Below, in pieces: positions 51,904 through 52,945 of a DNA stretch of 64,000 nt (position 1 is its first letter; each line of letters opens with the position of its first letter). Origin of the DNA: a bacterium (GTDB lineage: Bacteria > Patescibacteriota > Gracilibacteria > JAUYGZ01); contig JAUYGZ010000003.1 in the NCBI GenBank assembly GCA_030690415.1, positions 1 through 64,000 on the forward strand, written 5' to 3'. Under the pieces are notes generated by a model that saw only the letters and a list, made by a program, of their open reading frames with translations, did not search any database and was not told the origin of the DNA. Position numbers and translations under genes: made by a program.

Positions 51904-52236
51904 CTACCTCGTATGATCAACTCTGTTGCGATTTATCATTCCAACAGCTCTTGAGAGAACTTTGTATTTTGCATTCAACACTTCGTATTTTTCTGATGAA
52001 ATATCAGTTTCCTTTTTTAATAGATTTAACTTTGCGACAATGGGAATAAGTGCTTTTCTTGCTGGTTCTCGGATGGTATGTTTCGGGGCCTCTTCGGGTG
52101 TGAGATCGACAATCAAGTGCAAGGCTGCCAGAGAGTGTTCCAATTCAAACGACTTATGCATCTCTTCGAATTTCTGAATTTCTGGCTCGCATGGGCGTAA
52201 GTCTTCTGGTTCTGGACCGCTGTAGGTTTCATTCAT
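51904..52236 (-). CDS. Small acidic protein of unknown function
   Basis: 110 residues, starts MNETYSGPEPEDLRPCEPEI. Helical pattern, no membrane segment. There is a conserved-looking stretch LIVDLTPEEAPKHTIREPAR. It ends 16 bases past the def stop on the opposite strand. No family recognised; coding status rests on length and composition. Confidence 0.5.
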   Translation of the reverse strand: MNETYSGPEPEDLRPCEPEIQKFEEMHKSFELEHSLAALHLIVDLTPEEAPKHTIREPARKALIPIVAKLNLLKKETDISSEKYEVLNAKYKVLSRAVGMINRNRVDHTR

Positions 52237-52337: not shown

Positions 52338-52405
52338 GAAGATTTTGAGTGCACTCATTATTGATGAATGGAGTTGGATTATCAATGATTTACTTGAGGG
52401 CTAAC

Positions 52406-52441
52406 AAAAAACCTCCTCCCAATGAAGAGAAGAGGTTTTTT
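52406..52441 (-). terminator. Terminator of the structured RNA
   Basis: 10-bp perfect stem AAAAAACCTC / GAGGTTTTTT with an inner CTC/GAG extension. On the minus strand it ends in six T. It follows the 3' side of the structured RNA on that strand. Confidence 0.85.
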
Positions 52442-52910
52442 CTTTGATCCGAATCAAATCGTATTTTTGTATTGATTTGAAGGACCTTTGTTTTGATTTT
52501 TTGGGAAGGACTTCCCGATCTGAGCTTTTCGTTTGGTAGTTAAGGTCTTACCGGACCGTTATCGATCGCCTGTGTTCTCCTGAGAGAGCGAGAGGGATGC
52601 GACCTGTTCTGATCCGCCGCGGCGGATGAGAACGGTGCTTGGAGGCTGTAGCCCCGTGAACGTGTCAGTGTTCACAGTATGAAAAGCAAAGGGTGAAAGA
52701 AGAGCTTGTCCATTGCCGCACCGGTTCTTTTTGTTAAATTCCATAGGTTCATGGAATGAATGGAAGTCTGCGATCCCAGTCCCACGGGACTGGAGATACG
52801 AGCTTCATAGTGTGGAAGGGTGACTCGGGCGAAACATGGGTTCCGATGAACGGAACAGTTCTTCTCTCGCCTTTTGCTTTTGCGATCTGTAAAGGTTCAA
52901 ATCAACTTTT
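52442..52910 (-). ncRNA. Large structured RNA of unknown family
   Basis: About 465 nt on the minus strand between a promoter and a terminator. Close to the 5' end TTGATTTGAA-CCTTT pairs with AAAGG-TCC-TTCAAATCAA near the 3' end (15 bp with a bulge), closing the molecule. Inside it GATCGC pairs with GCGATC and GCGAGAG with CTCTCGC in nested order. Local hairpins include GTTCCG/CGGAAC, CCAGTC/GACTGG, TTCCAT/ATGGAA, GTGAAC/GTTCAC and ATCCGCC/GGCGGAT. I see no RNase P core (GAGGAAAGTCC), no tmRNA ends or tag, and no SRP or group I/II intron core. There is no convincing protein frame. The family is unknown; a diverged housekeeping RNA cannot be excluded. Confidence 0.7.
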
Positions 52911-52924
52911 CAAAATACTATAAT
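52896..52924 (+). promoter_or_regulatory. Promoter of the pyrE operon
   Basis: TTCAAA (52896-52901), 17 bases, perfect TATAAT (52919-52924). It would give a leader of about 134 bases before pyrE. The region contains a 17-codon ORF (52933-52986) with no further support. This promoter overlaps the opposing promoter of the structured RNA. Confidence 0.55.
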
Positions 52925-52945
52925 TCTTACCAATGAAGATTGCAA
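52917..52945 (-). promoter_or_regulatory. Promoter of the structured RNA
   Basis: Minus-strand TTGCAA (52940-52945), 17 bases, TATAGT (52917-52922). The expected start near 52910 is five bases before the terminal helix. Confidence 0.65.

Follow-up and report, generated by a model that had tools for sequence, protein, structure and literature searches.

The minus strand of the window, i.e., the whole 64-kb stretch of DNA that was analysed, carries a large structured RNA between positions 52405 and 52910. We are practically certain that this region is a real RNA gene, and it is very probable that the RNA belongs to a class absent from Rfam. Seven homologues have been defined, none of which matches any Rfam model, and we therefore regard them as a new RNA family. 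The six relatives of the window RNA comprise one orthologue, a paralogue in three genera of the same taxonomic family and, in each of two further genera, a distant copy that occurs singly. Across the seven RNAs the structure is kept while the sequence drifts. Below, G000 denotes the genome of the window, G001 and G002 belong to the same family, and G015 and G033 represent another family of the class. The copies are named after their location: type A lies beside tRNA-Arg, type B after gyrA, and type C between a peroxiredoxin gene and queG.

The window RNA, a type A copy, is equipped with the signals of an independent transcription unit. The promoter TTGCAA-17-TATAGT, which an earlier sequence-only reading had proposed, spans 52945-52917 on the minus strand, with the -35 hexamer at 52940-52945 and, after a 17-nt spacer, the -10 hexamer at 52917-52922. 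It is followed by a body of about 460 nt and then by an intrinsic terminator hairpin with T-run (52406-52441, minus; stem and T-run at 52433-52412 onwards), which that reading had also described. The promoter form TTG(A/C)AN-17-TATNNT is located at the expected place before all five copies of the window's family, and it is counted only five times in the whole 64-kb window, both strands included. The transcript probably ends near 52405, giving a length of about 505 nt instead of the 465 nt or so estimated at first. The adjacent tRNA-Arg(CCT), also noticed from the start, is a separate gene just past the terminator (52337-52263, minus) and a conserved neighbour, since the G001 orthologue likewise closes with a terminator ahead of tRNA-Arg. 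In the sequences read, a terminator is found after all three kinds of copies. Right behind the tRNA gene lies an open reading frame of 110 amino acids (51904-52236, minus) that has no Pfam match.

The description of this unit as a large structured RNA is borne out by its folding energy. The segment 52905-52405 has a minimum free energy of -174.5 kcal/mol (z -8.25), a value not reached by any of 100 shuffles, and the z-score against shuffled sequences is still -6.93 when the terminator is left out. For the other copies the z-scores range from -3.4 to -9.0, and none of the copies tested had a shuffle that folded as well. The dominant element of the 5′ part is the long helix P2, formed by AAAAGCAAAAGGCGAGAGAAG (52860-52881, minus) and CTTCTTTCACCCTTTGCTTTT (52682-52702, minus), the latter being the most conserved helix strand within the family; an equivalent helix is present in all seven RNAs. 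P2 encloses a variable apical domain with several local hairpins (52703-52859, minus), the length of which ranges from a few tens of nucleotides up to about 150 nt between copies, as judged by visual comparison of sequences and folds. Two nested long-range helices had been proposed initially. The inner one is conserved, but the outer one (GATCGC/GCGATC) competes with stem P7 and finds no support in the relatives. Similarly, the proposed terminal helix of 15 pairs, TTGATTTGAA-CCTTT/AAAGG...TTCAAATCAA, can be formed in the window sequence, yet it is unsupported by the relatives: the duplex amounts to -14.3 kcal/mol in the window versus -7.6 in the orthologue. It also competes with a local 3′ hairpin, GUCC..CAAAUC/GAUUUG..GGAU (52446-52486, minus), which is conserved with compensatory changes relative to the orthologue. 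This hairpin is preceded by an A-rich linker, AAAAAATCAAAACAAAG (52486-52502, minus), in which AAAAC.AAAACAAA is conserved within the family and which is A-rich in the other family as well; linker and hairpin follow, in this order, on the 3′ side of a pseudoknot that is missing from the first description. The rest of the layout described there stands. Type B copies additionally have a covarying 5′ hairpin, and helix P5 covaries between B and C copies.

Two further structural observations concern possible contacts beyond the secondary structure. A nearly perfect, GC-rich hairpin, TTCTCATCCGCCGCGGCGGATCAGAA, occupies positions 52606-52633 of the window; as its top is self-complementary, a kissing loop between two copies of the RNA is conceivable. 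In the type B copies (L033 1500-1700, minus; L019 1390-1570; L034 1420-1590) the loop AGUC/GGUC of the 3′ hairpin is complementary to a GACU/GACC segment beside P5, with one double change among three sequences only, and this pairing may represent a tertiary or intermolecular contact.

The element common to all seven RNAs is the motif AACGGUC-n-(n)GG..-AGAC..-AAC-(n)UnCC, which reads as a compact H-type pseudoknot. In the window this core corresponds to AACGGTCCGGTAAGACCTTAACTACC (52535-52560, minus), and it is captured by the covariance models R1 to R3. Stem S1 pairs GGTC (52554-52557, minus) with GACC (52544-52547), whereas stem S2 pairs GGTA (52549-52552, minus) with TACC (52535-52538). The general layout places a loop of a single base between S1 (GGUC/GACC) and S2 (GGGUA/UACCC, or GGUA/UACC in the A copies), and the third loop has AAC at its end. 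Stem P7, with the arms GGTCGC (52599-52604, minus) and GCGATC (52564-52569, minus), directly precedes the pseudoknot.

The relatives show covariation of the helices and share no protein reading frame, the outcome expected for a structured RNA in the test suggested along with the sequence-only reading. S1 is invariant in the four scored sequences, hence its support is one of consistency rather than covariation; in the G001 A copy it ends in GACA. S2 does covary: where five sequences have a U-A pair, G015 has C-G; the adjacent pair is A-U or G-U, and the outer pair is G-C, G-U or U-A. In the scored alignment of the six relatives, seven of the eight P7 pairs change on both sides, the P7 of the window copy being placed by hand together with a weak model match. 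Over the core as a whole, both partners are altered in 9 of the 13 pairs among six sequences, and the covariation score is 0.626 versus 0.272 for shuffled alignments. None of 500 shuffles scored as high, and a slid partner strand yielded 0.04-0.14. The six-sequence alignment was fitted to the model and therefore leans towards it, a bias which is partly answered by the slid and shuffled controls and by the independent find of the G033 copy (see below). An unfitted alignment of four sequences agrees with the covariation of the six-sequence core. With seven sequences, the full-length structure is settled in the core only.

The relatives were collected stepwise. A blastn search over 145 related genomes gave one credible match, in G001, a second genus of the same family. 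This orthologue (L003:1133-1645) lies ahead of tRNA-Arg(CCT) and def as in the window, while the gene upstream is recQ in G001 versus pyrE in the window. The G001 copy as query led to the G002 copy, located after gyrA. Second copies in G000 and G001 (E-values of 1.2e-8 and 1.9e-6, respectively) were then retrieved with a covariance model (R1) built on the 97-nt 3′ motif that the copies share, and both again lie after gyrA. In G002, which is 88% complete and split over some 170 contigs, only type B is seen. Model R2, built from these five copies, gave a weak match in G015 (E 0.012), in the other family, with the same layout on inspection. Model R3, covering P7 and the pseudoknot, was trained on the three B copies and G015, with two unpaired bases deleted from the G015 row for the alignment. 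It detected G033, of the same family as G015 and not part of the training set, at an E-value of 2.2e-9. The A copies score weakly with this model trained on B copies and G015 (25.6-26.1 bits). G015 and G033 are syntenic, with the RNA between the AhpC/TSA peroxiredoxin gene and queG. Judged from these sequences, the window's family keeps two paralogues, A and B, and the related family one. Across 380 sampled genomes of the phylum, no further relatives came to light; the absence from other families could be due to fast-evolving relatives that were missed.

Several weaker matches were set aside. The first blastn matches in G130 and G132 both lack the core motif, and L004 falls in the rpsD region. 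The weak model matches L029, L048, L049, L050, L051, L053 and L060 are located within coding DNA or overlap with it, and the core is missing from them, and the likewise weak matches L030-L032, L052 and L054-L057 were left out of the relatives. Two observations on the surroundings deserve mention. In the second family, the entire intergenic stretch that separates the peroxiredoxin gene from queG (L041 2924-3911, minus; L047 885-1810) looks structured. It has a z-score of -9.0 for 601 nt in G015 and a repeated motif, AUAACAAAACUCCA, such that the RNA of this family may be 850 nt or longer. In addition, a PemK/MazF-like toxin gene (L035 2063-2449, minus) adjoins the type B copy of the window's genome, with none at the equivalent place in G001.

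The initial statement that no known family is recognizable holds for the window copy and its six relatives. A cmscan search of the window region with all Rfam 15 models gave nothing at gathering score except tRNA, and a loose search yielded chance-level matches only. The near-matches to PyrR (E 0.1-0.17), Thr_leader, Phe_leader and microRNAs are far under the gathering scores and mostly cover the terminator hairpin only. None of the six relatives matched an Rfam family at E-values up to 1 or 3. Likewise, the covariance models of GOLLD, ROOL and OLE, to which the RNA had been likened, do not match the window region at E-values up to 10; the likeness is limited to size and layout. Neither the group I and II intron models, in the window copy or the relatives, nor any riboswitch model, including preQ1 of Rfam, gave a match. 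Matches between short open reading frames of the homologues mirror the similarity of the DNA and lie in different frames. No motif or match was found in the viral, phage and plasmid collections, and a search of the literature on structured RNAs in the window's lineage returned nothing relevant. An apparent resemblance of UAACGGUCC to a 23S rRNA stretch near helix 69 was dropped as well, since a match of 9 nt is no more than chance would yield and the G001 B copy breaks it.

A very diverged housekeeping RNA was the initial alternative to a new class, and the results favour the latter. Since the genome encodes its own tmRNA (G000:C18:30467-30919, 87.3 bits) and RNase P RNA (167.8 bits) elsewhere, both above cut-off, the window RNA is neither of them. 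In agreement with this, the RNase P model does not match it, ARAGORN finds no tmRNA at its position, tRNA-like ends and a tag frame are lacking, and it shares no similarity beyond chance words with either of the two. The most plausible candidate would be SRP RNA: neither RF00169 nor RF01854 detected it in the genome, which is 98.8% complete, so that its gene is either lacking or beyond recognition, and SRP RNA may be very diverged in this lineage. However, none of the seven RNAs matches the SRP models even at loose thresholds, a rough scan for the core loop of SRP RNA was empty, and the tmRNA and RNase P RNA of the same genome score above cut-off. A pair of paralogues of 480-580 nt with a 3′ pseudoknot core does not fit SRP RNA either, and we consider this explanation highly improbable. 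It is also improbable that the RNA is a cis-acting leader, i.e., a riboswitch or attenuator that conditionally terminates transcription of the gene beyond the terminator. Such a leader would explain the terminal intrinsic terminator, the competing pairings in the window copy, the position of queG as next gene in two genomes and the core itself, as compact H-type pseudoknots are common in riboswitches. Yet, the downstream genes are not of the same kind across genomes, being tRNA-Arg for A, queG for C and unrelated or convergent genes for B, and the upstream neighbour of A differs too. Moreover, no riboswitch model matches, and at 480-850 nt the RNA would be far longer than known riboswitches.

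Since ribozymes typically combine a large size with a core that contains a pseudoknot, a self-processing RNA, either a new ribozyme or the RNA of a mobile element, was considered as well, but we give it little credence. No intron or ribozyme model of Rfam matches, no maturase or transposase gene is seen beside the RNA, and neither an exon junction nor a cleavage motif was recognized. The RNA also has its own promoter and terminator, occupies positions conserved between genera and has no match in the viral, plasmid and phage collections that were searched. Also unlikely is a long regulatory or sponge RNA that acts by base-pairing and whose hairpins, spaced by A-rich single strands, would bind a chaperone or serve to titrate an RNA-binding protein. 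The conserved A-rich linkers AAAACAAAAACAAAG and the several hairpins joined by CA-rich linkers in the G015 copy are in line with such a role, but the strongest constraint falls on a compact pseudoknot and a stem, not on an antisense seed or a loop motif that recurs, and both the variable 5′ domain and the long helix P2 give an architectural impression.

In this study, we propose that the RNA is a free-standing, trans-acting large structured non-coding RNA outside Rfam that acts as a scaffold or assembly, a reading to which we assign an even chance. Cis-regulation is unlikely and action in trans is preferred because the A, B and C copies are surrounded by different genes and terminators follow the RNA. 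The scaffold role is suggested by the size, the layout and the lack of known motifs. According to this scaffold model, the RNA would be transcribed from its own promoter to its own terminator as a stand-alone molecule. The long helix with its variable insert in the 5′ part would provide an adaptable structural body, and the 3′ domain of stem and H-type pseudoknot would serve as the working core that binds a putative partner, be it a protein, the ribosome or another copy of the RNA. The whole would thus serve, much like GOLLD, ROOL or OLE, as a scaffold or an RNA-based assembly, and not as a cis-regulatory leader.

The term large ornate RNA is a descriptive label rather than a homology group, and the likeness to GOLLD, ROOL and OLE is one of plan only. 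GOLLD is a large, ornate RNA of unknown function that is often found near tRNAs and has a conserved 3′ region and a less conserved 5′ region (PMC12286853). The window RNA similarly combines a conserved 3′ domain, a variable 5′ domain and a tRNA gene beside it. The GOLLD family is further characterized by a homo-oligomeric nanocage. However, GOLLD is a phage or prophage RNA, often longer than 800 nt, whereas the window RNA measures about 500 nt in its family, has another core motif and is chromosomal. The RNA neighbours in the different genomes are housekeeping genes (pyrE, def, tRNA-Arg, gyrA, queG and the peroxiredoxin gene) and not phage or prophage genes. ROOL, solved for a 659-nt example, contains multiple pseudoknots and occurs near tRNAs, with a function that is also unknown (PMC12286853). 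Length, pseudoknot and tRNA proximity are similar here, yet the context is non-phage and the sequence core is another one. OLE stems from other bacteria and forms a dimer (PMC12286853). Both OLE and the window RNA are long, independently encoded and elaborate, with extended helices, but the latter lacks conserved neighbouring partner genes. With preQ1-I-type and similar H-type riboswitches the RNA shares the topology of the core, i.e., a short stem, a one-base loop, a second stem and an A-rich third loop, as well as queG downstream in two genomes; here, however, the RNA is very long and has its pseudoknot close to the 3′ end, and in the window's family queG does not adjoin it. tmRNA, finally, is of comparable size and has pseudoknots, but differs in its ends and tag frame.

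In summary, we have described what is most probably a new class of structured RNA, and to our knowledge few bacterial non-coding RNA classes reach this size. If its function proves to be a known one, the class would count as a variant and not as a new category. The alignment and models provide a direct route to further members, and the compact core is of a size that suits probing and structural work. GOLLD, ROOL and OLE build unexpected RNA assemblies (PMC12286853). As a tentative extension, we suggest that the present RNA could be a new large ornate class, chromosomal and duplicated in a genome-reduced lineage, in which the pseudoknot core drives a permanent RNA-only or RNA–protein assembly with a housekeeping role at the level of the cell, unlike the phage-borne GOLLD and ROOL. 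An uncultured lineage with a genome of 1.45 Mb retains about 500 bp per copy, twice, for this RNA, and the setting among housekeeping genes instead of phage genes makes it a cellular case of the GOLLD, ROOL and OLE puzzle.
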